From the NCBI GenBank assembly GCA_015493495.1, contig WGDB01000097.1:1-41285 (forward strand): a DNA stretch of 41,285 nucleotides, written 5' to 3'. Positions 9,370 to 39,068 of the stretch are shown piece by piece. Below the pieces are notes generated by a model. That model was given only the letters and a program-made list of their open reading frames with translations. It searched no databases and was not told where the DNA came from. Made by a program: the position numbers and the translations under genes. Source of the DNA: Helicobacteraceae bacterium. GTDB taxonomy: Bacteria; Campylobacterota; Campylobacteria; Campylobacterales; Sulfurimonadaceae. How positions within the stretch are numbered: position 1 is the stretch's first letter; each line of letters starts with the position of its first letter.

Positions 9370-10245
9370 ATGATCGCTTTTAACTTCAACATCCATTTTC
9401 CAGATGAACCGTCTCTAAACGATGGTATTTCCGATAATTCAAAAAAGAATATCACTATAGTTAAAAGCAGTGATACTGAAATATTTGAAAAATTATCTCA
9501 AAAATCAGAGTATCTTCCCCTTTCAGGTAGGGAGGCGTCCTATGGGGCTGAAGTAGAATTTTCTAAATGTAGAGAAGGGTGTCTTTGGGGTGTTGATGTC
9601 AAAGGCGTTGTAAGTTTCGTGTGGTCTTGTGGCGATCGTACCTTGAGCTATTTGCCACAACCCTTGCTAACAGTAGAAGTATTAGAATTTTGGACACTGC
9701 ATACAATCATCCCTATGATGTTAGCCCTAGATGAAACCTACAATATTTTACATGTTGGGGCCGTAGAAGTAGCAGGAAAACCCATTATCTTCTCAGCTGA
9801 ATCTTTTGGTGGCAAATCTACAATGACTGATTACTTTTTACAACAAGGACATACTCTGTTGGCTGATGATACGCTGGGTATCTATAAAGATGCTGAAACT
9901 TTTAAAGCGGTGGCATCGTACCCTTTTCACAGGCCATTCAGAGAAGCCGAGTCTTTGGGGTATAAGGTCTCTAATGTAAATACTCACCCCCGAGCTGTAA
10001 AAGCGGTCTATCTGCTGGAAAAAAGTGATGCAGATGCAGAAATCACTATTACAACGATCAAGGGTGTAGAAAAATACAGAGCCTTCCATTTCAGTACCTT
10101 TATCAATTTTGACTTCTTGAAAGAGAAACGTTTCATATCACTTAGCGAGATGGCCAATGCCATTACAGTCTATAAAGTGAGTGTACCCTGGAAACTGGAG
10201 CGACTGCCAGAAGTATACACGGCTATTGTGGAAACAGTAATTTAG
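9370..10245 (+). CDS. HPr-kinase-like P-loop protein (HprK-related)
   Basis: 291 residues. The core resembles HPr serine kinase/phosphorylase: H128 in 'ILHVGAVEV', a P-loop 'AESFGGKST' (143-151), 'LLADDT' (164-168) as the Walker-B-like pair, and a 'PFHRPF' segment (185-190). The first P-loop Gly is Ala. True HprK has an N-terminal domain; here the first 120 residues do not resemble it. There is no HPr or PTS gene nearby. Related proteins (called HprK-related kinase A in NCBIfam, from memory) occur with PqqD-like proteins in peptide-associated clusters, and a PqqD-like gene lies at 17465. It begins 5 bases after the small membrane gene, so it may be read through from atpB. Substrate unknown. 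Confidence 0.75.
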   Translation: MIAFNFNIHFPDEPSLNDGISDNSKKNITIVKSSDTEIFEKLSQKSEYLPLSGREASYGAEVEFSKCREGCLWGVDVKGVVSFVWSCGDRTLSYLPQPLLTVEVLEFWTLHTIIPMMLALDETYNILHVGAVEVAGKPIIFSAESFGGKSTMTDYFLQQGHTLLADDTLGIYKDAETFKAVASYPFHRPFREAESLGYKVSNVNTHPRAVKAVYLLEKSDADAEITITTIKGVEKYRAFHFSTFINFDFLKEKRFISLSEMANAITVYKVSVPWKLERLPEVYTAIVETVI

Positions 10246-10261
10246 CACTTGTTTTTGTTTT

Positions 10262-10288
10262 ACAACCGATGACTTTAGTCTTGGTTGT
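10262..10288 (+). terminator. hairpin after the HprK-like gene, possible terminator
   Basis: ACAACC pairs with GGTTGT around an inner TGACT/AGTC stem, 16 bases after the stop codon. No clean T-run follows at once, although the next 60 bases are T-rich. It separates the HprK-like gene from the first peptide cassette. Weak as a terminator call. Confidence 0.3.
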
Positions 10289-10399
10289 TGTTAGGCGGGA
10301 GTGAGGTTTTTGTTTCAAATAGCTCGTGAATATTCAATATTTTACTTCTTTTAATTTTTGCAAAAATCAATAAAAACTCTACCTAAAACATCAATACGC

Positions 10400-10405
10400 T
10401 ATAAT
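10400..10405 (+). promoter_or_regulatory. -10 box for the first Tat peptide gene
   Basis: Consensus TATAAT, 28 bases before the peptide ATG. The second peptide gene has the same consensus box at a similar distance, so each cassette seems to have its own promoter. No good -35 is visible. Confidence 0.55.
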
Positions 10406-10433
10406 AAAAGAATAACATATTAGGATAGTCAAA

Positions 10434-10613
10434 ATGCACCTCAAAGAAAAAACGTTACCTTCTGCAGAGAAAAAAGTGCAGACAGATCGTCGTAGTTTTA
10501 TAAAAAAGGCTGTTTATGTTGCACCTACTTTGATGGCGTTGGGTGGTCTTTTACGTCCAACCGAAGTCAAAGCTGGGTTTGGGAAACCGCCAAGTGGACC
10601 AACGTGGAGTTGA
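10434..10613 (+). CDS. Tat-signal peptide precursor 1, predicted 12-residue mature product
   Basis: 59 residues. A charged n-region is followed by the twin-arginine motif 'DRRSFIKK' (R19, R20), a modest hydrophobic stretch 'VAPTLMALGG', and a signal peptidase I site 'VKA' (45-47). Cleavage there would release a 12-residue peptide: G-F-G-K-P-P-S-G-P-T-W-S. Tat normally carries folded or cofactor-bound proteins, so a 12-mer cargo is odd; a modified peptide or an uncleaved membrane-anchored form are both possible. The sequence from the RR motif to 'GKPPSGP' is nearly the same in the second copy at 13927. Not recognised as a named family. The next gene starts 2 bases after the stop. Confidence 0.75.
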   Translation: MHLKEKTLPSAEKKVQTDRRSFIKKAVYVAPTLMALGGLLRPTEVKAGFGKPPSGPTWS

Positions 10614-10615
10614 GA

Positions 10616-12859
10616 ATGAAACACATTAGTACATTTAAATGGATGTTTATAGTAACCATCTTTATGTTCGCAACTACATTACAGGCACTTACTGTAACAA
10701 AAACGTATTCCGGACCAACGGAAGAAATAGATAATTCTGGTGATTATGGCGTTGCTTTGCCTGCAGTTGACTTTACGGGAGCAGATTTTTTTCCAGGTGC
10801 AGTTATCTCAAAAGTAGCAACATCTATTACATGGTTAAAGACAGATGGCTCATGCGCTAGTCCAGCTGCAGGAAGTGCTTTCCATGGTGAAACAAGTTTT
10901 AGATTGGATTCTCCTCTAGGCAATGAAGTCTTAGCATTATCGGGAACGTGGTCGGGAAACAGTGCTACTTCAGATGTTACAACTGTTTTTGAACAAACTG
11001 CTGCAAATACACCATCGGGTACACCGGTTAACGGTACCTTTAAACCTAACAATGGAGACCTGGATAACTTTATAGGTGGTGATCCTGTAGGCTCTTGGAA
11101 CCTTGCTGCCGGGGATAATGCTAATAATGATCCCCTGTGTGTACATGCCTACAGTGTAAGTATTACTGTCTATGATGATACTGATGCTGATGGAGTTTAT
11201 GATAATATAGACTTAGATGATGACAACGATGGAATTTTAGACAGTGTGGAAAGAGGTGCATTCCAAGTTGCAGAGACAAATACAAATACAGGAACTATTA
11301 ATGATAACAGTTGTTTTGATAGAAGTTTTACAGTAGCCCCAAGTGGGACTATTTTAAACAGTGTGACGCTTAATATTGAAATCGATCATACCTACCGTGC
11401 TGACTTGGATATAAGTCTTATCTCTCCGCTAGGAACATCCGTAGATCTGACAAGTGATAATGGAGGGGGTACTGATAATCTCTATGTACTTTTTGATGAT
11501 GCAGCGGCATCTTCTGTTGTCGGAGATTCAAGCACGCAACCTCCAACACAATCACTCTCTCCAGAAGTGGCATTGTCAACTCTAAATGGTGAGGATTTTC
11601 AAGGAACATGGACGTTACATATATGTGATGATGCAAATAATGATGTAGGTACATTTAACGAAGCAACACTGTATATAGATTATAAAGGAAGTGATTTAGA
11701 TACTGACGGAGATGGGGTATTGAACCAACTTGACCTAGATTCGGATGATGACAGTATCCCTGATAATATAGAAGCCCAGTCCACTATCAGCTATATATCA
11801 GCTTCAGGGAGTAATGCAGGAATTACAGATGCAAACAATAATGGCTTGGATGACAACTATGAATCTTCTCAGGGTGGAACAGATCTGACCCCGCTGGACA
11901 CTGACAGTGATGGCACACCTGATTATTTTGACAGTGATTCAGACAATGACCGTGTCAGTGACTGTATGGAAGGCATGCCAAATGCTACAGTAGGTAAAAA
12001 ATGTCCTGTAGCGTTGACAGATACCCATTTGTATGGCTTGGTAGACTGGATGTCGACAGGTTCTGCATATGAGACAGTAAACGGTATTGTTGCTGATCCT
12101 GCAACGGATCTTTATGATTTTGATACTAATACACCAGAAGTATCGTACCGAGAATCCAGTATATGCGGGAATCTTGTTTGGGAGTTGACTGCAGATCAAT
12201 GGAAGACCATAGCAGCACCTTGTGTGATCACTGGGAATATTAGAGATATCTTTAGTACATCACTTGGGGCAGGTGATGATGCCAACTATGGTGATGCCGG
12301 TACTTGGGTGATGTATAAACAGTCTGATTTTAGTGGGCATAGAAATTCGGGTTATACTGAAGTGGCTTTGAGTGAGTCAATGGATCCTTCAACAGGATAT
12401 TGGATTATTACAAGTTCAGATGCTAATGTAAGTGTGAATGATGGACAGTTTAGTACTACGGAAGCAGCGAAAGTGGCCGTGACAAACCATACCCCTGCGA
12501 CAAGTCCAGATTTCAATGAAGTCTATAGAACAGGAACAAGCGTTGCTGATGCAACGGTTCATAAATTTCTTTTGGGTCATCCATTTTCTGGACAGTTGAT
12601 CTTAAAAGATCTTTTTGTGACAGGTGATAACGGAAGTAACTATTATCCGATGACAGATAATGCAAACGTAGATTCATTTATGTATACCACTGTCTATGTT
12701 TATGATCATACCGGTACAGACACTCAAAATTATGTAGCAAAAACGCCAGGTACTCCTGGATTTGATGGCCTCATTGAAAATGGAATTGGTTTTTGGTTAG
12801 GTGCAAAAGCAGACTCTGGTGCAACACTTGGTGCGGATTTTCCGTACTATATACCATAA
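10616..12859 (+). CDS. secreted TSP3-repeat protein with P-domain-like modules, cassette 1
   Basis: 747 residues from ATG 10616; GGAG 6 bases upstream makes this better than the in-frame GTG at 10604. A signal peptide ends near 'TTLQA' (24). Two domains ending in 'GSWNLAAGDNANND' and 'GTWTLHICDDANND' resemble proprotein convertase P-domains (about 30-185 and 220-360). Calcium-binding thrombospondin-type-3 repeats lie at about 186-212, 361-390 and 430-455 ('DLDDDNDGILD', 'DTDSDGTPDYFD'). The last 240 residues form a module shared with the protein at 15073 ('QWKT..PC', 'WVMYKQ', 'TGYWIIT'), ending 'FPYYIP'. It is probably exported to periplasm or cell surface. No protease or enzyme domain is seen. 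Confidence 0.8.
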   Translation: MKHISTFKWMFIVTIFMFATTLQALTVTKTYSGPTEEIDNSGDYGVALPAVDFTGADFFPGAVISKVATSITWLKTDGSCASPAAGSAFHGETSFRLDSPLGNEVLALSGTWSGNSATSDVTTVFEQTAANTPSGTPVNGTFKPNNGDLDNFIGGDPVGSWNLAAGDNANNDPLCVHAYSVSITVYDDTDADGVYDNIDLDDDNDGILDSVERGAFQVAETNTNTGTINDNSCFDRSFTVAPSGTILNSVTLNIEIDHTYRADLDISLISPLGTSVDLTSDNGGGTDNLYVLFDDAAASSVVGDSSTQPPTQSLSPEVALSTLNGEDFQGTWTLHICDDANNDVGTFNEATLYIDYKGSDLDTDGDGVLNQLDLDSDDDSIPDNIEAQSTISYISASGSNAGITDANNNGLDDNYESSQGGTDLTPLDTDSDGTPDYFDSDSDNDRVSDCMEGMPNATVGKKCPVALTDTHLYGLVDWMSTGSAYETVNGIVADPATDLYDFDTNTPEVSYRESSICGNLVWELTADQWKTIAAPCVITGNIRDIFSTSLGAGDDANYGDAGTWVMYKQSDFSGHRNSGYTEVALSESMDPSTGYWIITSSDANVSVNDGQFSTTEAAKVAVTNHTPATSPDFNEVYRTGTSVADATVHKFLLGHPFSGQLILKDLFVTGDNGSNYYPMTDNANVDSFMYTTVYVYDHTGTDTQNYVAKTPGTPGFDGLIENGIGFWLGAKADSGATLGADFPYYIP

Positions 12860-12866
12860 GGAAAAT

Positions 12867-13676
12867 ATGATGAGAAAAAAAATACTGTTGAGTGGTTTCA
12901 TAGTCTTGACACTTTTAGTAAGCGGCTGTAGTAAAGATAAAAATAGTGAGACTGCAGCAGAGACCCCAGACAATCCTATAGAGCCTCCAGCAGTAGTAGT
13001 AAACCCGTATAAAACCGCAGGCTGGTATGGTAAGACAGTAGTTCATGCGACAGCAGAAGATGGTAAGATCTATTCTCATAAAAGTGCTGGTGTCTTTGGT
13101 GAACTGGTGCAAAGTAGTGATGACAAAGACCAACATGACATCCCCGGTTATGGACCGGCTAAGTTGCAAATCGTCTTTTATAAACCGGAGTGGGGTGATA
13201 ACAATGGTTACTATTTTTCTGATTATAGAAGTTATGACGATAACAGTAAGCAGGTATGGACATTCCAAGTGTTGAACACGTATGTTGAAAAAGATCCAGA
13301 CTATGGTGTGGACTTGTCTAATGCTTTTGTCACCATTAGCCTTCCTGCTATTTATGATGTGCGCTACAAAGATGACAATGGTAGTATTACCTATAAAGAG
13401 TCAAGTGAAAGTAATATCACCCTGCTAAACAAACTCACACTTGTTGATGTAGACAATAACACAGCATACAGTCTCTCAGAACTTCAAACAGCCTCTTTAA
13501 ATATGGATGGTAAACATACCAGAACATTTAGATGGGTACTGGGAACTGTAGATCAAGATGACTACACGCCTCTGGCGGCACCACAAAGAGCATCTGGGCG
13601 TAACAGCGCTGCTACTGCTTTTGATGTCGAGCCTATACAACAAAATAGTGGAAATTTTGGACTGCCACCACGATAA
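12867..13676 (+). CDS. lipoprotein with C-terminal FGxPP motif, cassette 1
   Basis: 269 residues (start ATG 12867 or the next ATG 12870; AAGGA at 12858). The lipobox 'LVSGC' puts the lipidated cysteine at C21. After a Pro-rich linker the body shares long blocks with the lipoprotein at 14176: 'TAGWYGKTVV', 'HKSAGVFGEL', 'DIPGY', 'YKESS', 'MDGKHTRTFRW', 'GRNSA'. It ends 'NFGLPPR', an F-G-x-P-P motif also present in the two Tat peptides. No known domain recognised. It begins 7 bases after the TSP3 gene, so the two are in one operon. Likely outer-membrane or inner-membrane anchored in the periplasm; function unknown. Confidence 0.8.
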   Translation: MMRKKILLSGFIVLTLLVSGCSKDKNSETAAETPDNPIEPPAVVVNPYKTAGWYGKTVVHATAEDGKIYSHKSAGVFGELVQSSDDKDQHDIPGYGPAKLQIVFYKPEWGDNNGYYFSDYRSYDDNSKQVWTFQVLNTYVEKDPDYGVDLSNAFVTISLPAIYDVRYKDDNGSITYKESSESNITLLNKLTLVDVDNNTAYSLSELQTASLNMDGKHTRTFRWVLGTVDQDDYTPLAAPQRASGRNSAATAFDVEPIQQNSGNFGLPPR

Positions 13677-13926
13677 CCCCCTCCCACAGTAAGTAGGCAC
13701 TTGATGGACAACTGACTCTTGCTCTTTTAGTTTTAAATTAGCATCATCCGCGTAATACCCAAGAGTAGCCTTTTAACCTCCTTCTTGATAACACGCTCTT
13801 GGCTCTCTTCCTCTCAAACAGACCTTTATTTAAACACATCCTTAGTCTATCAGTACCCCAAAAATATTCATCAATAGAAAACATGTTATAATGAAGGGTA
13901 AATAAAGAACTTTATAAGAGTATAAA
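13677..13926. other. intergenic region between the two peptide cassettes
   Basis: 250 bases with no gene. Bases about 13750-13820 contain a degenerate copy of the repeat seen at 24630 and 40010: 'CGCGTAATACCCAAGAG', then 'TTTTAACCTCCTTCTTGA', then 'ACGCTCTTGGCTCTC'. The right end carries the promoter of the second peptide. Confidence 0.5.
13887..13892 (+). promoter_or_regulatory. extended -10 box for the second Tat peptide gene
   Basis: TATAAT preceded by TG-N (TGTTATAAT), 34 bases before the ATG at 13927. 'ATCAATA' occurs shortly before both peptide -10 boxes, so the two promoters may be related. Confidence 0.55.
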
Positions 13927-14109
13927 ATGGCTAAAAAACAAGAGATTTTAACTTCTGTCCCTGAAAAAAAAGAACAGACCAATCGCCGTGATTTTATGAA
14001 AAAAGCGGTATATGCTACACCGACTTTGATGGCATTGGGTGGACTTTTACGTCCAACTGAGGCTAAAGCTGGGTTTGGAAAACCACCGAGTGGGCCAGTA
14101 TGGAATTAA
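13927..14109 (+). CDS. Tat-signal peptide precursor 2, predicted 12-residue mature product
   Basis: 60 residues, clearly a paralogue of the peptide at 10434. Twin arginines R20/R21 in 'NRRDFMKK', hydrophobic 'ATPTLMALGG', 'LLRPTE', and an 'AKA' signal peptidase site at 46-48, leaving a 12-residue G-F-G-K-P-P-S-G-P-V-W-N. Only positions 11 and 12 of the mature part differ from copy 1 (T-W-S against V-W-N, with W fixed), so the mature peptide is as conserved as the signal. The far N-terminus differs more. It precedes a lipoprotein gene by 66 bases. Function unknown; a modified peptide, a signal or an assembly factor are open. Confidence 0.78.
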   Translation: MAKKQEILTSVPEKKEQTNRRDFMKKAVYATPTLMALGGLLRPTEAKAGFGKPPSGPVWN

Positions 14110-14175
14110 AAAAAACAGAGGGTGCAAAGTTACTTGTAGGCGGCATAGTAAGCCATCACTTAGAAGAGGGTTTTT

Positions 14176-14991
14176 ATGAAATATAATAAGATGAAATTTT
14201 TTGTAAGTATTGTAGTAATTAGCTTATTAATAATTGGTTGTAGTGAACAAGATACTGTAGAATCACCTTTAGATCTTATAGATATTAAATCTATTACTAT
14301 TGCGGAAGATCCAGTGGTTTATGAAGCTGTTGCACCGGAGTATAGTACTGCAGGTTGGTATGCTAAAACAGTAGTAAGTGCCACAACTTCTGAGGGTACA
14401 GTATATACACACAAAAGTGCTGGTGTGTTTGGTGAACTGCTTCAAAGCAGTGATGCTAAAGACAGCCATGATATACCAGGTTATGCTCCTTCGATCTTTC
14501 AGATCCTCCTTATACCAGAATTCTTAACGGAGACTACAACAGGTTATTATAGCGAGTATAAAAACTATGATGATCCTGAAAGTAAAAAGAGATGGACATT
14601 CCAGTTGAAAAATCAAAATAGTGTTGATTTATCAAATGCCTCCATAACAATTGCTTTGGAGGGTGTTTTTGATGTGGATTATAAAGAAGAGAATGGACAT
14701 GTCATTTATAAAGAGTCCTCGTCAGTTAATGAAGCGTTGAAAAGAAGGTTGACATTAATAGATGTTGATCATCGGGCTAGTTATACGCTCTCAGAATTAA
14801 AAACTGCAGACTTAGGGATGGATGGTCAACATACACGAACATTCAGATGGATTTTTGGTACGGTGGAGTCATCTGATTATAATCCACTTAATGTATCTCA
14901 AAGAGCAGCAGGACGCAATAGCGCATCGGACTTTGAGCTTGTCACAAAAAAAGAGACAGGCGGTGGCAAGTTTGGTTACCCACCTTTATAA
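14176..14991 (+). CDS. lipoprotein with C-terminal FGxPP motif, cassette 2
   Basis: 271 residues. The lipobox 'LIIGC' gives lipidated C22. Paralogue of the protein at 12867 along its whole length, sharing 'STAGWYAKTVV', 'HKSAGVFGELLQSSD', 'DIPGYAP', 'DLSNA', 'YKESS', 'MDGQHTRTFRW' and 'GRNSA'. It ends 'KFGYPPL', so the F-G-x-P-P motif is kept although the residues around it changed. GAAGAGGG lies 5 bases before the ATG. In this cassette the lipoprotein precedes the TSP3 gene, the reverse of cassette 1. Confidence 0.8.
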   Translation: MKYNKMKFFVSIVVISLLIIGCSEQDTVESPLDLIDIKSITIAEDPVVYEAVAPEYSTAGWYAKTVVSATTSEGTVYTHKSAGVFGELLQSSDAKDSHDIPGYAPSIFQILLIPEFLTETTTGYYSEYKNYDDPESKKRWTFQLKNQNSVDLSNASITIALEGVFDVDYKEENGHVIYKESSSVNEALKRRLTLIDVDHRASYTLSELKTADLGMDGQHTRTFRWIFGTVESSDYNPLNVSQRAAGRNSASDFELVTKKETGGGKFGYPPL

Positions 14992-15072
14992 AAGTTGGAT
15001 TGGAATGTATATAAATTTAAGATTATTTAGAATGGTTAAACCCTCTACGATAATCAAAGAAGGATTGTAATA

Positions 15073-17301
15073 ATGATAAAAATAAAATTTTTGAAACTGA
15101 TTGTTTTAGTACTATTTCTGGTAGGGACTGAGCTACTTGCTTTGACAGAAACATTTATAGACCGATTTAACAGTGTCTCTTATAACAACAACGATGGTAC
15201 AAAAAACTTTGCTGGACCATGGGATGAATATGAACCGTATGCTACTAATAATGATCCTAGTGGAGGATATATAAGAATCAGTAGTAACAGGTTGTATCTA
15301 TATTATATTTGGGCTGAGACCATTACTCGTGAGTTGGATCTCTCTGGTGCATCAGCAGTGACATTGTCTATCGATCTTGTTAGTAATAATTTGGCAGGTG
15401 ATACAGAAGAGATACAATTAAAAAATTCGGATGGTTCCTGGGAAACTGTGATCTTCGTCGATGAAAATACAGTGACAGGTACAAAAAACTATACCATGCC
15501 TTCGAGATTTATTCATGCTTCAAGTGGTATAAAATTTATTGCAACTACGGACTGGGGTTCTAGTGACAGGGTGTATTGGGACAATCTTATTTTTACTGCC
15601 ACATATGTAGATACAGATGGTGACAGTGTCCTTGACAGTGTAGATGTTGATGATGACAACGATGGTATTCTTGATGTTGATGAAAAGAGCGTTCAGACGG
15701 ACAGCTATTCTAATGGTGATGGAGGCGGTACACATATCTATAATTATGCATATACAGATAGATCGACGGTATCAATAGATTTAATGGCAGTAAATCATGC
15801 TTTTAATATTGAAATAGATGGTACGACACTACTTGTCAATGGCAATATAATGGACATTGACAATACGGCAGGACGAAGCCAATTAAAGTTTGCTACCAGT
15901 GGTGGTGGAAGTGGTACGATTGTGAATAATCCTGAGAACACAAATACTAACGGATTACCCAGAGTCCGTATTTATATTGATGTAAATGGAGTAGTGAAGG
16001 TTTATGGTACCAGAACAACGTCATCAACCTTTATCGAATCATTGATAACAGCAGATGGGAGTACCTATAATACCTTTGTCCCTTCTTCTGGATCTCATGA
16101 AATCAAAGTAACCAATATAGATGATGCAGCAACGGAAACTTTAAATGCAAAAAACACTGTCGCTACTGATGTTGACAGTGATGGAGATGGTATAGTCAAC
16201 AGTCTTGATCTAGACAGTGACAATGATGGCCTTGCCGATAATGTAGAAGCACAGAGTACAGGAGGTTTTACTCTTTCGTCAACACCACCTGCTGTACGCC
16301 CTGACGGAAGTAACAGTGCCTATCCCGCTGCAGGTCTGACGCCTCCTGACACCGATGTCAATGGTATTATGGACTTTTTAGATAATGACTCGGATGATGA
16401 TGAGATCACAGATTGTAAAGAGGGTAATGTCAATGTTATGGGCTCTTGTCCTATTGTAACGGTAGAAGCCAATGGTATGAATATTAACGCAGGTGGTGCG
16501 GGTAACTATAATGCAGTAGCTGGAAATATTACAAACCCTGATCCTGTTGCAGCTCAAACTGATGATGAGATCAGCAGTGATGGCGAAGCAGCATACAGAG
16601 AAGCGGCCTGTGGCCCGGCAGAAGTGAGTTTGACAGCAAACCAATGGAAAACATTCAGCTTTCCTTGTGATACAGGTATTAACTCGATAGAGACGCTGCT
16701 TGGAGATACCTTGGGTGTGTATGGAGACAATGCAGACTGGGTTATGTATAAACAAAATGGAAACTACACGGGCAAACCAAGTTCTGATTTTACTTTAATG
16801 AATGCCAGTGATACGGTAACAGCCGGAACAGGTTACTGGATCATTACAGATGCTAATAAAGTTGCGAAAATCAAACGACCTTTAGGTGGTATTGCTAAAT
16901 CTGCTACGGTTCCAGCATCTAACTTTGCAGGTATTCCGACATCAGGACAGGCTTTTAGTAAAGTTATGGCCTATCAATTACCAGATTCATCGACAACTGA
17001 TGCAAAAAAAGTACTGATCGGTAATCCATTTTTAAAAAAGTTTCAACTCTCTGACCTGTACTACCAAAACGATGCTAAAAGTCTCAACTATGTTTCAACT
17101 ACGGCATTAGTCAGTGGTGAACCTATGGAACCCGTAGTTTACATAAAGGACAGTAGTGATATAACAAGTGGAAATTATGTAGCGATTACACCAGAAACTC
17201 CGGGATTAGGGGATGTTGTGCCAGCTATGCAAGGTTTTTGGATTAAATTAAACTCGGGAAACAGCAACAGTAATACCATCACATTCCCATATGAAAAGTG
17301 A
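15073..17301 (+). CDS. secreted TSP3-repeat protein, cassette 2
   Basis: 742 residues with a signal peptide ending near 'ELLA' (23). The N-terminal 160 residues look like a beta-sandwich ('YWDNLIFTATY' end) and differ from the P-domains of the 10616 protein. TSP3-type acidic repeats occur at about 180-205, 366-395 and 430-455 ('DVDDDNDGILDVDE', 'DSDGDGIVNSLDLDSDNDG'). The last 240 residues match the other protein: 'SLTANQWKTFSFPC', 'WVMYKQ', 'GTGYWIITD', 'LIGNPF', 'GFWIKL', and the end 'FPYEK'. The conserved paired Cys suggest disulfides outside the cytoplasm. Role unknown; surface binding or scaffold is a guess. Confidence 0.8.
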   Translation: MIKIKFLKLIVLVLFLVGTELLALTETFIDRFNSVSYNNNDGTKNFAGPWDEYEPYATNNDPSGGYIRISSNRLYLYYIWAETITRELDLSGASAVTLSIDLVSNNLAGDTEEIQLKNSDGSWETVIFVDENTVTGTKNYTMPSRFIHASSGIKFIATTDWGSSDRVYWDNLIFTATYVDTDGDSVLDSVDVDDDNDGILDVDEKSVQTDSYSNGDGGGTHIYNYAYTDRSTVSIDLMAVNHAFNIEIDGTTLLVNGNIMDIDNTAGRSQLKFATSGGGSGTIVNNPENTNTNGLPRVRIYIDVNGVVKVYGTRTTSSTFIESLITADGSTYNTFVPSSGSHEIKVTNIDDAATETLNAKNTVATDVDSDGDGIVNSLDLDSDNDGLADNVEAQSTGGFTLSSTPPAVRPDGSNSAYPAAGLTPPDTDVNGIMDFLDNDSDDDEITDCKEGNVNVMGSCPIVTVEANGMNINAGGAGNYNAVAGNITNPDPVAAQTDDEISSDGEAAYREAACGPAEVSLTANQWKTFSFPCDTGINSIETLLGDTLGVYGDNADWVMYKQNGNYTGKPSSDFTLMNASDTVTAGTGYWIITDANKVAKIKRPLGGIAKSATVPASNFAGIPTSGQAFSKVMAYQLPDSSTTDAKKVLIGNPFLKKFQLSDLYYQNDAKSLNYVSTTALVSGEPMEPVVYIKDSSDITSGNYVAITPETPGLGDVVPAMQGFWIKLNSGNSNSNTITFPYEK

Positions 17302-17348
17302 TGGCGTAAACATACTGACTGTAGTGATATTTTTATGTTTTTTAGGAG

Positions 17349-17376
17349 TGGATAACTTTTAAAAGATAGATATAAT
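17349..17376 (+). promoter_or_regulatory. promoter for the PqqD-like/thiE-like pair
   Basis: TGGATA (17349-17354) and TATAAT (17371-17376) with a 16-base spacer, 88 bases before the PqqD-like ATG. The leader contains two competing short hairpins: GGTAT/ATACC (17385-17402) and CTCTAA/TTAGAG further on. No TPP riboswitch consensus was found despite the ThiE-like gene. Confidence 0.5.
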
Positions 17377-17464
17377 TAAATGTAGGTATCTCTAAAAATA
17401 CCAGCTGTTCTTAGAGGGAATAAAAGAGATGAAAAAAATATGTAAATATAAATAAAGAGGTCTA

Positions 17465-17737
17465 ATGACTTTAAATGACACCATATCGATTGCTGAGACA
17501 GTTTTTGCCCAAGAAGTTGACCATGAGATGGTTATCTTAGATACTGAAAGTGAGCAGTACTTTGGTTTGGATGAGACAGGTGCTGTTATTTGGCAGTACT
17601 TGAGTGAAAATGGCGCTTTGCAACAAGTCTTTGAGATAATGTTTGAGAAGTATGAGGTGGATGCCAAGCAGTTAGAAGCAGATATCTGCCGTTTTACACA
17701 GGAATTGGTAGATGCTCGGCTGGTTCAAAAGCAGTAA
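17465..17737 (+). CDS. PqqD-like peptide-binding protein
   Basis: 90 residues. It matches the PqqD/RRE fold in size and motif: 'VILDTESEQYFGLDETGAVIWQYL' region (about 24-47, three beta strands then a helix), and a helical second half with a 'DAKQLEADICRFTQEL' helix. PqqD-like proteins bind leader peptides of ribosomally made peptides and present them to modifying enzymes. The two Tat-signal peptides upstream are the obvious candidate clients, and the HprK-like protein at 9370 the candidate partner; both links are inference. AAAGAGG precedes the ATG. The ThiE-like frame may overlap its end. Confidence 0.8.
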   Translation: MTLNDTISIAETVFAQEVDHEMVILDTESEQYFGLDETGAVIWQYLSENGALQQVFEIMFEKYEVDAKQLEADICRFTQELVDARLVQKQ

Positions 17738-35385: not shown

Positions 35386-36300
35386 ATGCACGAAAGTCAT
35401 ACACTGATCCACAGTATTATTGATGAGGTAGAGACCGTTCTTATTGGTAAACGTGACAAGATCGCTTTGGCGATGGCGGCCTTTCTTTCGGGTGGACATC
35501 TGCTGATCGAAGACATGCCGGGTGTGGGGAAGACCACTTTGGCCAAGACACTTGCAGAGGTTCTGGGACTGGACTTTGGGCGTATACAGTTTACTTCAGA
35601 CCTGCTTCCGGCAGACATCATCGGGGTGAACTATTTTGATGTCAAGAGCGGTGCTTTTCGTTTTAAAAAAGGGCCCATCTTTAGTTCTCTGCTTTTGGCT
35701 GATGAGATCAACCGTGCGACTCCAAAGACACAGAGTGCCCTTTTGGAGGCCATGGCAGAACAGCAGGTGAGTGTAGACAACGAGACCTACAAGCTTGAAC
35801 GTCCCTTTTTTGTGATCGCGACCAAAAACCCTTATGAAGAGAACGGTGTTTTTGCGATGCCAAGCTCTCAGCTGGACCGCTTTGTCTGTACGATCTCACT
35901 GGGTTATGCCAACAGAGACTCTGAACGTGAGATCCTGCGTCGCGGTGGTGCAGAACCTTCGCTAAAACTCAAACAACTGACACGAGAAGAGGTCGAGCGA
36001 CTAATACGCTTGGCTCAGGAAGTCCATGTCAGTGAAGAGATCCTGGACTTGATCCAAAACATTGTGGAGGTGAGTAGAAACAGAAGTCTCTTTATCTATG
36101 GTCTCTCTACTCGTGGTGCCTTGGCACTGCTGCAACTGTCAAAAGCTTATGCCCTTATAGAAGGCAGAGACTTTGTTATCCCTGATGATGTTACCGCAGT
36201 ATTAGAGCCGGTACTTGTCCACAGACTGGAGTTACAAGAACGTGATCATACTCAATCAGCTACAGAAAAGATTCTCGCCCTCATTTGCCAAGATTGCTAG
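35386..36300 (+). CDS. MoxR-family AAA+ ATPase
   Basis: 304 residues. 'EDMPGVGKTTLAKTLAEVLG' Walker A (about 42-61), 'RIQFTSDLLPADIIG', Walker B 'LLADEINRATPKTQSALLEAM' start and 'QLDRF' arginine-finger region are typical. MoxR proteins act as chaperones for partner proteins, generally encoded next to a DUF58 protein, as here. AAGG lies 7 bases before the ATG. It overlaps the DUF58 gene by about 59 bases. Confidence 0.92.
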   Translation: MHESHTLIHSIIDEVETVLIGKRDKIALAMAAFLSGGHLLIEDMPGVGKTTLAKTLAEVLGLDFGRIQFTSDLLPADIIGVNYFDVKSGAFRFKKGPIFSSLLLADEINRATPKTQSALLEAMAEQQVSVDNETYKLERPFFVIATKNPYEENGVFAMPSSQLDRFVCTISLGYANRDSEREILRRGGAEPSLKLKQLTREEVERLIRLAQEVHVSEEILDLIQNIVEVSRNRSLFIYGLSTRGALALLQLSKAYALIEGRDFVIPDDVTAVLEPVLVHRLELQERDHTQSATEKILALICQDC

Positions 36301-37135
36301 AAAGGGAAGTGAGCGACCGACCAAGTATATCTATCTTCTGATCTTTATCTTTGTCGCGCTCTTTATGCAGGCGTACATCCATAACTATAACATCGTCTAC
36401 ATGACCCTCTTTTTCACTTTTGGCTTTGCTATGAGCAGTTACCCTTTTGGGCGTAATAACATTCGTGCTCTGGAACTTGAGCTTTTCTCTTTTGATAGGG
36501 TTTTCGCTCATGAAAAGAGTCTCTACGCGCTGCGGTTGCACTCCTCAAAACAGGAGCTTTATGACATTACCTGTATAGCTGCTCAAGATCGTGTGCATGT
36601 TGATAACATTAAAGAGGGGGAGGCGAGGTTGATCACCCTCTCACATACTTATGACAAACGGGGAGAGCAGGTGTTAGAGAGTGTTGAGTGTGTCAGTGGG
36701 TTTCCGCTGCCACATCAGACTTTTTACAAGGTCTTTGACATTAACAGAGCTTTTGTGGTCTATCCTGAGCCTAAGGGAAAAAGTCTGGATGCTTTTATGG
36801 TGCACAACCGTATGCTTTATGGAGAGCGCGAGGATTTTGACGGTATTAGAAACTTTGAAAGTGGAGACCGTCTCTCTGAGATCTACTGGCCTTCCTTGGC
36901 TAAGGGTGATACATTGATGAGCAAACAGTTTTTGTACAGTGATGAGAGTAGGGAGCTGGTCTTTGAGTTTGAGCAGTGTGGCAGCGATGATGAAACACGA
37001 CTTTCACAACTGACACTGTGGGTCTTAGAGTGTGAAAAGAGAGACCTGAACTTTACCGTAGTCATAGCGGGCAGACGTCTAGAACGCGAAAAGATGGAGA
37101 CAGATGAGATCCTTAGCTTCCTTGGTCGATTTTAA
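36242..37135 (+). CDS. DUF58-domain membrane protein
   Basis: 297 residues from GTG 36242 (CTGGAG about 10 bases upstream); an in-frame TTG at 36215 would add 9 residues. Two membrane spans near 30-70 are followed by a cytoplasmic or periplasmic domain with the family block 'FESGDRLSEIYWPSLAKG' (compare G-D-x-x-R-x-I-x-W). DUF58 proteins are von Willebrand-like partners of MoxR ATPases. The start deep within moxR and the 32-base overlap with the next gene indicate tight coupling. Confidence 0.85.
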   Translation: MIILNQLQKRFSPSFAKIARKGSERPTKYIYLLIFIFVALFMQAYIHNYNIVYMTLFFTFGFAMSSYPFGRNNIRALELELFSFDRVFAHEKSLYALRLHSSKQELYDITCIAAQDRVHVDNIKEGEARLITLSHTYDKRGEQVLESVECVSGFPLPHQTFYKVFDINRAFVVYPEPKGKSLDAFMVHNRMLYGEREDFDGIRNFESGDRLSEIYWPSLAKGDTLMSKQFLYSDESRELVFEFEQCGSDDETRLSQLTLWVLECEKRDLNFTVVIAGRRLEREKMETDEILSFLGRF

Positions 37136-39068
37136 AAAACCTTTTTCACCACTGCACCTTGTGGACGTGGCACTCATCTTGGCCATCATCCCTCACTTGG
37201 ACCGTCTCAAGTTTCCTATGCTGGTCTATCTCTTAACCGTTTTTTTAGTGTTACTCTTTTTCAGAGAACGCCCCAAATGGTTAAAGTACCTGCTGGTTCT
37301 TTTTGGACTGCTCTCTGTGATCAGCTCATTTTACAGCGACTTTAATTTTGCCTCATTTAACAAGTTCGCCCTCTACCTCTCATTTCTCAACGTTTTATTG
37401 ATCTTTGCGGTGACACTGCAGCGACTTGAAAACAAGGTGAACTTTTATCTGGCCTTTTCACCGGCACTGCTTTTGACACTCTCCTTCTTTCTGCACAACT
37501 CGGTACTGATGCTCTTTTATATGGTCTTTACACTTTTTGTCTTTTTACTGCTCTTTTTATGGCAAAAGATGCAGGGAGAACTCGTCACAGCCTTTAAGAT
37601 GGCACTTTCCATCTTTGCCTATGCCCTGCCTATTGTTGCCATCTTGTTTTTGGTCTTTCCAAGGATCAACTTCGAAAAAGCAGAGTATGGTTTTAGTGAC
37701 ATCTTAACCAAACGCAGTGGTCACAATGGACGGATGTCACTAGGCAGTGATGCTCTGTTGGTACCATCCTCTCAAGTCATTATGGAGGTCTATTTTAAAA
37801 AGCCCTTGCCCAAGAGTAGAGATCTTTACTTTCGTGGTACGGTTTTGTATCAAGACAAAGACACTGCTTTTTTACCTTTGGCCAAGAGTGCACAGCACCC
37901 TCTACGCCAGTCTGAAACAGCCACCCATCTGGCTGAGCCTGTAGATTATGATGTGACCCTTTATCCTCATGATGAGCGGTGGCTTTATGGTTTGGACATA
38001 CCTGTTGTTAAACCTGAAAAAAGTCAACTTTTAGAGGACTACACCTTAGTGGCAGACAAAAAGGTCAAAAAAAGTCTGCGTTACAGCGTGCGCTCTTATA
38101 TGCAGTACCAAATAAATGCTCCTTTACGTGAAGAGATCAAAAAAGCAGCTCTACAGGTAGACCTTCATCGAGATGAAGTAAGTGCCAAGATCGCAAAAAG
38201 TCTGCACTCTAAAAATGATGTAGAGACCTTAAACAATCTCGCAGCATATTTTCGAAGTTTGGGGTTAACGTACACCTTGAAACCCGACACCTTTGACACC
38301 CTGCGTCCCATAGACTCTTTTTTACAAGAGAACAAAAAAGGGTACTGTGTCCATTTCGCAGCAGCCTTTACATACATGGCTCGAGCCGCAGGACTTCCCG
38401 CTCGAGTGGTCACAGGCTTTAGAAGTAACAGTGATCAAACCTTGGGTAATTACCTGGTAGTGAGAGAGTATGATGCCCATGCCTGGGTTGAGGTCTACTT
38501 GAAAAAGCAGGGGTGGCGCAGGGTGGAGACGACAGCATTAGCGCAATATATGGACAAAGACGTTATGGAACAGCTTGGCGTACCTACTACTGTTTTGGGA
38601 CGTCTTTTACATGAAAGCAATCTGCGTTTTATGTATGTCAAATATATCATAGAGACGTGGGTTCTTGAGTACAGTCGTATGAAACAGATGGAGCTCTTAA
38701 AAAACCTTCTCAGCAGTAACAGTTATCTCATCAAAGCCATACTGTACCTGCTTCTTTTTATGATGCTCTCCATAGGTTTTGCCATCTATATAAGTGGTGT
38801 AAAAAGCACACATACGCTTTTAAAACTGATGCAACCTCTTTTTAAAACACTTCAAAAAGAGGGACTGAAAAAGCGACCGACAGAGAGTATGCACCACTTT
38901 TTCATGCGGGCAGAAAAACTGTATGATGCGCAGTGGTTAGAGCAGATAGATCTTTTGTATCATAGATTACGCTACGGTGAAGTTATAGATGCTGAAGATA
39001 AAAAACGTTTACAAAAAGAGCTAAAAGTCTTAATAAAAAAGGGTAGCAAAAACCTTAAAAATGGGTAA
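37104..39068 (+). CDS. TgpA-like membrane transglutaminase-domain protein
   Basis: 654 residues. Five to seven N-terminal spans (DUF3488-like), a periplasmic transglutaminase-like domain with C415 ('KGYCVHFAAAF') and H459 ('YDAHAWVEV'), one further span (about 550-570) and a DUF4129-like tail. The place of the third catalytic residue reads 'GWRRVETTA', giving Glu475 where the family usually has Asp. Forms the third member of the moxR-DUF58-transglutaminase operon, an arrangement well known in bacteria. Substrate unknown. Confidence 0.88.
   Translation: MRSLASLVDFKKPFSPLHLVDVALILAIIPHLDRLKFPMLVYLLTVFLVLLFFRERPKWLKYLLVLFGLLSVISSFYSDFNFASFNKFALYLSFLNVLLIFAVTLQRLENKVNFYLAFSPALLLTLSFFLHNSVLMLFYMVFTLFVFLLLFLWQKMQGELVTAFKMALSIFAYALPIVAILFLVFPRINFEKAEYGFSDILTKRSGHNGRMSLGSDALLVPSSQVIMEVYFKKPLPKSRDLYFRGTVLYQDKDTAFLPLAKSAQHPLRQSETATHLAEPVDYDVTLYPHDERWLYGLDIPVVKPEKSQLLEDYTLVADKKVKKSLRYSVRSYMQYQINAPLREEIKKAALQVDLHRDEVSAKIAKSLHSKNDVETLNNLAAYFRSLGLTYTLKPDTFDTLRPIDSFLQENKKGYCVHFAAAFTYMARAAGLPARVVTGFRSNSDQTLGNYLVVREYDAHAWVEVYLKKQGWRRVETTALAQYMDKDVMEQLGVPTTVLGRLLHESNLRFMYVKYIIETWVLEYSRMKQMELLKNLLSSNSYLIKAILYLLLFMMLSIGFAIYISGVKSTHTLLKLMQPLFKTLQKEGLKKRPTESMHHFFMRAEKLYDAQWLEQIDLLYHRLRYGEVIDAEDKKRLQKELKVLIKKGSKNLKNG

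Follow-up and report, generated by a model that had tools for sequence, protein, structure and literature searches.

A Tat-signal peptide cassette with an HprK-like kinase and a PqqD-like protein in a Campylobacterota genome, apparently a Gram-negative cousin of the linear phosphorylated peptides

We examined a stretch of 41,285 nucleotides (positions 1 to 41,285 of contig WGDB01000097.1, assembly GCA_015493495.1, Helicobacteraceae bacterium; "the window") for the possible function of an eight-gene cassette at 9370-17737, which encodes two small peptides with signals for twin-arginine translocation (Tat). The eight open reading frames (ORFs) are intact and all lie on the + strand, in the order HprK-like protein, Tat peptide 1, TSP3-like protein 1, lipoprotein 1, Tat peptide 2, lipoprotein 2, TSP3-like protein 2 and PqqD-like protein; the arrangement is as described in a first-pass annotation, with the HprK-like and PqqD-like genes at the two ends and two copies each of the peptide, lipoprotein and secreted-protein genes between them. 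The copies share 72% identity for the peptide, 48% for the lipoprotein and 34% for the C-terminal half of the secreted protein, and their internal gene order differs; the start codon of TSP3-like gene 1 lies 2 bases past the stop codon of peptide 1. None of the eight genes encodes a radical SAM protein, YcaO or a transporter, as had been noted at first pass, nor a lasso protease or cyclase. The host is a sulfur-oxidising marine bacterium of the Campylobacterota, whose relatives include Sulfurimonas and Sulfuricurvum metagenome-assembled genomes (MAGs).

The precursor peptides are encoded at 10434..10613 (peptide 1, profile E=1.6e-18) and at 13927..14109 (peptide 2, recognized by sequence and profile). 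In each a twin-arginine motif (RRSFIKK in peptide 1, RRDFMKK in peptide 2) is followed by a hydrophobic stretch, and within that stretch lies a motif of the type read by RREs, the recognition elements of ribosomally synthesised and post-translationally modified peptides (RiPPs): YVAPTLMALG at 10515..10544 and YATPTLMALG at 14011..14040. Cleavage is predicted after VKA in peptide 1 and after AKA in peptide 2, and would release 12-residue cores, namely GFGKPPSGPTWS (10575..10610), in which Ser7 and Ser12 are candidate phosphosites, and GFGKPPSGPVWN (14071..14106), in which Ser7 is the sole Ser/Thr. The Tat signal model TIGR01409 matched peptide 2 (16.9 bits; cut-off 16.7) and gave no match for peptide 1; TatC is encoded in the host genome (E=2.8e-66). 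When the codons of the two peptides were compared from the RR onward (n=41), 13 differed synonymously and 7 were replaced, and peptide 2 has a 98% identical counterpart in the genome of another species; because of these two results the Tat peptides behave as real genes.

The PqqD-like protein (17465..17737) scored 60.1 bits against Pfam PF05402 (cut-off 23.4; E=2.7e-16) and fell under both NCBIfam cut-offs for lasso PqqD proteins. Its relatives of solved structure were, best first, TbiB1 (E=6.8e-10), PbaB1 (9x90; 7.7e-8), TfuB1 (8e-6) and LppB (9x8z; 0.012), all ranking ahead of PqqD itself. Judged from these matches, it is a discrete RRE of the lasso type, and its first-pass assignment as a leader-peptide binder is borne out insofar as its closest solved relatives bind leaders in lasso and linear polyphosphorylated peptide (LPP) systems. 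In LppB, D70 holds the leader Tyr-16, V35 and F74 flank Pro-13, and the kink is fixed by N33. The corresponding pocket residues of our protein are D36 (LppB N33), D73 (D70) and F77 (F74), and across window-type loci they are kept in 12/12, 12/12 and 11/12 cases, respectively; the change from N33 to D36 is conservative, and TbiB1 also has Asp at this place.

The protein at the other end of the cassette (9370..10245; 291 aa) had been called an HPr-kinase-like P-loop protein, an assignment that is weak by sequence (PF07475 E=2e-4, under cut-off) and clear by fold: its AlphaFold model (pLDDT 93.7) matched HprK/P by Foldseek with E=1.9e-7 and probability 1.0. Its conserved residues are H128, the GGKST loop at 147-151, D166-D167 and the HRPxR motif at 187-191; across 32 relatives H128, the loop, D166 and D167 never vary, and the HRPxR motif varies little or not at all. 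The spacings H-21-K and K-17-D(D) are the same as in BsfK, and H128/K149/S150/D166/D167 match BsfK H148/K169/S170/D186/D187. BsfK depends on H148, G163, K169, S170, D186 and D187, and phosphorylates core Ser3 or Thr3 with strong help from its RRE (PMC10368454); LppK places several phosphates onto core Ser3 (PMC13381572). By model and by residues, then, the cassette protein resembles RRE-assisted peptide kinases such as BsfK and LppK.

The lasso-type RRE-binding motif, YxxPxLxxxG, sits at a fixed place inside the Tat signals of the peptides, and the invariant residues in an alignment of 20 of them are R, R, K, Y, P and G. Among 26 peptides of window-type loci (class A), gathered with a pattern that required the YxxP motif, the spacing from RR to Tyr was 9 in 26/26 (one, from L234, having Trp for Tyr), a Pro lay at +14 from the Tyr in 25/26, an Ala at +19 (position -1 of the cleavage site) in 24/26, and a Thr at +15 in 15/26; the +15 Thr would correspond to Thr(-2), which is conserved in lasso leaders. 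The cores are 8-34 residues long, mostly 10-16, and the 24 that were tabulated contained Pro-Pro (22), Trp (16) and Ser or Thr (24), with a Ser or Thr among the first three residues in 15/24. One way to read the motif is that YxxPxLxxxG answers only a need of the Tat signal or membrane anchor, the peptide being an uncleaved anchor and the kinase acting on some other protein. The position of the motif within the hydrophobic region would fit this, as would the existence of orphan peptides without kinase or RRE (below). We give this account very little credence: YxxPx[hydrophobic] was found in 0 of the 14 ordinary Tat signals from related genomes for which a match was located (a control dominated by one enzyme family, with open frames of about 940 aa), the Ala is kept at a fixed -1 position, and the peptide is very strongly associated with the kinase and RRE at the genome level, as follows.

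In the class-level set of 397 near-complete genomes, 15 carried the peptide, 21 the kinase and 45 the RRE. The kinase was present in 13/15 peptide genomes (Fisher p=2.6e-17) and the RRE likewise in 13/15 (p=8e-12), and 20/21 kinase genomes had the RRE (p=2.6e-20); in the family-level set of 151 genomes the kinase was found in 12/15 peptide genomes (p=1.4e-11), all of these p-values ignoring shared ancestry. Thus the rule of co-occurrence proposed at first pass for peptide, kinase and PqqD-like protein holds at both levels for the kinase and at class level for the RRE. The three genes usually lie close together, and one genome (G203) has three peptides, each adjoining its own kinase.

The loci fell into three types. 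Type A, that of the window, comprises peptide, TSP3-like protein, lipoprotein, kinase and usually RRE; there are about 25 such loci, most of them from Campylobacterota, chiefly Sulfurovum and relatives, and the association of lipoprotein and TSP3-like genes with the trio, also suggested at first pass, is thereby that of a conserved module. Type A loci were found as well in MAGs labelled Thermodesulfobacteriota, Methyloprofundus and Proteobacteria, which may represent transfer, or it could represent mis-binning. The JAUXBW01 "Methyloprofundus" MAG carries two kinase loci, one of window type and one of lasso type (L089 and L115), both near Sulfurovum ones, and here too either mis-binning or transfer may apply. 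Type B has an NTP_transf_5 (PF14907) protein beside the peptide, kinase and RRE (L070, L072-L075, L077, L121 and L133); several of these adjoin Wzc- and Wza-like genes for polysaccharide export, and their cores are often long and Gly/Ser/Asn-rich or repeat-rich. Type C comprises lasso protease, kinase, cyclase and RRE, without a Tat peptide. The Campylobacterota lasso loci L068 (G044) and L071 (G010) have an ABC transporter, a Transglut_core3 protease, an HprK-like kinase, an asparagine-synthase-like cyclase and PqqD, and no Tat peptide was present at either. In the kinase tree the locus-type labels cluster much more than chance would give (13 changes vs 33 in shuffles), and nearly all window-type kinases stand apart from the side that holds classes B and C, some forks being open.

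That homologous kinase and RRE genes occur at lasso loci within the same family (G010, G044), and that a lone RRE occurs in a genome of the same genus (G007), would be expected if the RRE and kinase were leftovers of a lasso system and the Tat peptides unrelated small surface proteins. Such a relic seems most improbable to us. The module of peptide, kinase, RRE, lipoprotein and TSP3-like protein is shared by many genera and has a kinase lineage of its own; the kinase catalytic residues and the RRE pocket residues are kept; and on two contigs (L094, L227) a window-type locus adjoins a lasso-type one, so that the two are kept as separate systems.

A lasso peptide was also rejected as the product of the cassette: no B2 protease was found in the genome (there being only a sub-threshold Transglut_core3 match at 38343-38495), and profiles detected no asparagine-synthase-like cyclase in the window, the remainder of the genome not having been searched for one. 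The sub-threshold match lies in a 654 aa protein (37104-39068), probably an ordinary transglutaminase-like protein, whose gene follows that of a MoxR-like ATPase (35386-36300). Of the known lasso systems, the Bsf cluster of Bradymonas sediminis (BsfK, BsfB1; PMC10368454) resembles the cassette in its RRE-assisted HprK-like kinase, catalytic spacing and YxxPxL leader, and differs in having a B2 protease, lasso cyclase, ABC transporter and lasso precursor. The paeninodin-type lasso peptides (LasK-type kinases) likewise combine an HprK-like kinase with a PqqD-like B1 protein; their C-terminal Ser phosphorylation, WxxP leader and macrolactam are absent here. The NCBIfam HPr-rel-A pair (TIGR04352 / TIGR04353), also an HprK-related kinase with a PqqD-family protein, was the label suggested at first pass, and it had to be dropped, both models being far under cut-off (22 bits vs 200 for the kinase and 15.6 vs 35 for PqqD).

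The nearest known kind is that of the LPPs (LppA/LppB/LppK/LppN/LppS/LppD; Popov et al. 2026, PMC13381572), which share with the cassette a discrete RRE and an HprK-like kinase, a linear precursor that is encoded next to them and has YxxPx[hydrophobic] in its leader, a variable C-terminus and no lasso cyclase. According to these authors LPPs are limited to the Bacillota, and Tat, Gram-negatives and Campylobacter are not mentioned (PMC13381572). In LPP systems a SipW-like peptidase does the cutting and there is a link to an MsbA-like ABC pump; neither is encoded among the eight cassette genes (the search did not extend to the rest of the genome), which include no SpI, ABC or NTP transferase gene. 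Of the full LPP leader consensus, YxxPxVLxHQxIxFETxxS, our peptides show the YxxPx[L] part only, and the rest of their leader is the hydrophobic and cleavage region of a Tat signal. They also differ in their short, Pro-rich core and in their partners, which are TSP3-like proteins and lipoproteins. Since several defining LPP features are thus lacking, we regard the system as LPP-like in its working and not as an LPP member, apparently a Gram-negative cousin of the linear phosphorylated peptides. The type B loci, with their polysaccharide-locus setting and NTP transferase, would form a second, LPP-like Gram-negative family.

What is seen directly is the gene content, the family of the RRE, the fold of the kinase with its catalytic residues, the merging of two signals into one, the conservation and the co-occurrence. 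From these we somewhat favour a reading in which an RRE-guided kinase phosphorylates a core Ser/Thr, and the peptide is then exported by Tat and cut by signal peptidase. By analogy with the characterised homologues, the PqqD-like RRE would bind the Tyr-x-x-Pro-x-Leu stretch within the Tat signal and present the precursor to the HprK-like kinase, which would phosphorylate a core Ser/Thr, putatively Ser7 of GFGKPPS here and often residue 2-3 in relatives. To judge from the signal, the RRE would then let go, the modified precursor would pass to the Tat translocase, and signal peptidase would cut after A-x-A, leaving a 12-residue phosphopeptide outside the inner membrane. The first-pass proposal that kinase and RRE act on the peptide before export is supported to this extent by the homologues, and its outline is largely correct. 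It had held the chemistry to be unknown or encoded elsewhere; it need not be elsewhere, because relatives of the kinase phosphorylate RRE-bound precursors, and the missing chemistry is most likely the kinase itself. In a variant that we consider rather improbable, the kinase and RRE do modify the peptide, and the phosphate serves as a handle for further chemistry (e.g., glycosyl or nucleotidyl transfer) by enzymes elsewhere in the genome. Sister loci place NTP_transf_5 beside the same trio, and both the LPP and Bsf clusters hold an NTP transferase; against this, NTP_transf_5 is missing from the window and from nearly all window-type loci, the search having stopped short of the rest of the genome.

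Several observations weigh against the favoured reading. Alanine changes in the YxxPxL of BsfA left phosphorylation in place; the candidate Ser is at no single fixed position in the core; and orphan Tat-YxxP-like peptides occur in genomes that yielded neither kinase nor RRE (L085 in G058, L086 in G077, G303:C29 and G330:C8). These we regard as the strongest objections. In addition, the core of L097, EYLPDNPPWLNQ, which lies outside the 24-core table, has no Ser/Thr; G007, of the same genus, has the RRE and none of the kinase, peptide and partner genes; the window (again, the only part of the genome searched) lacks the NTP transferase that LPP clusters have; since YxxP lies inside the Tat hydrophobic region, its conservation may partly serve the signal; and, given the pattern used to gather the 26 peptides, profile searches alone test the motif freely. 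The BsfA result further implies that binding and chemistry are separable, which would suit another explanation, namely that the RRE is a Tat proofreading chaperone holding the YxxP signal, that the HprK-like protein uses ATP for release or regulation, and that the core leaves the cytoplasm unmodified. In other systems Tat signals are shielded by redox-enzyme maturation proteins, and the binding motif here is inside the Tat signal itself. We nevertheless think such a chaperone unlikely: all catalytic residues are kept in the kinase, the characterised RRE-linked HprK-like proteins are peptide kinases, and so short a cargo, unless modified, leaves nothing to proofread.

The remaining cassette products are the presumed surface partners. 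Lipoprotein copy 1 (12867..13676) has a lipobox Cys and ends in FGLPPR (13656..13673), resembling the core FGKPPS; copy 2 (14176..14991) has a lipobox Cys and ends in FGYPPL (14971..14988). The model of lipoprotein 2 (pLDDT 72.9, moderate) shows a beta-rich domain at about 57-240, a disordered linker and a disordered tail, and a fold search gave no PDB match at E<=0.001. A tail of FG[LY]PP occurs where the core is FGxPPS, F-D-[LI]-x-x-P-P occurs in several other loci, and the tail is missing at loci with the core xxSVPxPPxW; the lipobox is absent in some homologues (L089, L091, L101). An FG-type tail accompanied an FG-type core in 6/7 loci vs 1/17 otherwise (Fisher p=3e-4), which was not accepted as independent co-evolution of core and tail, the FG-type loci being related and sharing gene order too. 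That the peptide core and lipoprotein tail have a common docking partner is a reasonable guess. Secreted protein copy 1 (10616..12859) has TSP3-like Asp repeats, a P_proprotein domain (E=1.3e-17) and a conserved C-terminal domain, and copy 2 (15073..17301) has TSP3-like Asp repeats; of the earlier description as TSP3-repeat proteins, the repeats, DxDxDGxxD, were indeed seen and are what the label stands on, and there was no Pfam TSP_3 match. The phosphopeptide is assumed to work at the cell surface with the lipoprotein, through its flexible FGxPP tail, and with the TSP3-like protein. The scheme as a whole, a RiPP-like Gram-negative system whose leader is the Tat signal, read by the RRE, with the core phosphorylated by the kinase, exported by Tat and docked by FGxPP surface proteins, we put forward tentatively, as possible rather than probable.

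The locus suggests that phosphorylated linear RiPPs have a parallel family in the Campylobacterota and in a small number of other MAGs, one that would leave the cell through Tat and signal peptidase where LPPs use their own peptidase and an ABC pump. On this view a single sequence should double as RiPP leader and Tat signal, of which no report was found in the literature searched; if true, modification and export would be coupled, which might account for the use of Tat by a very short cargo, and the conserved surface partners could show the purpose of such phosphopeptides.

A promoter scan gave a result not above shuffles. On one side of the cassette lie an atpB-like gene and an 87 aa ORF, and on the other a thiE-like gene and then gatB. 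At L081 (G007:C118, 3757-5075), in the same genus, the PqqD-like gene stands alone between thiE-like and atpB genes, and the kinase, peptide, lipoprotein and TSP3-like genes are absent. Because L081 keeps the PqqD-like gene only, the cassette behaves as an accessory island whose RRE is able to outlive it.

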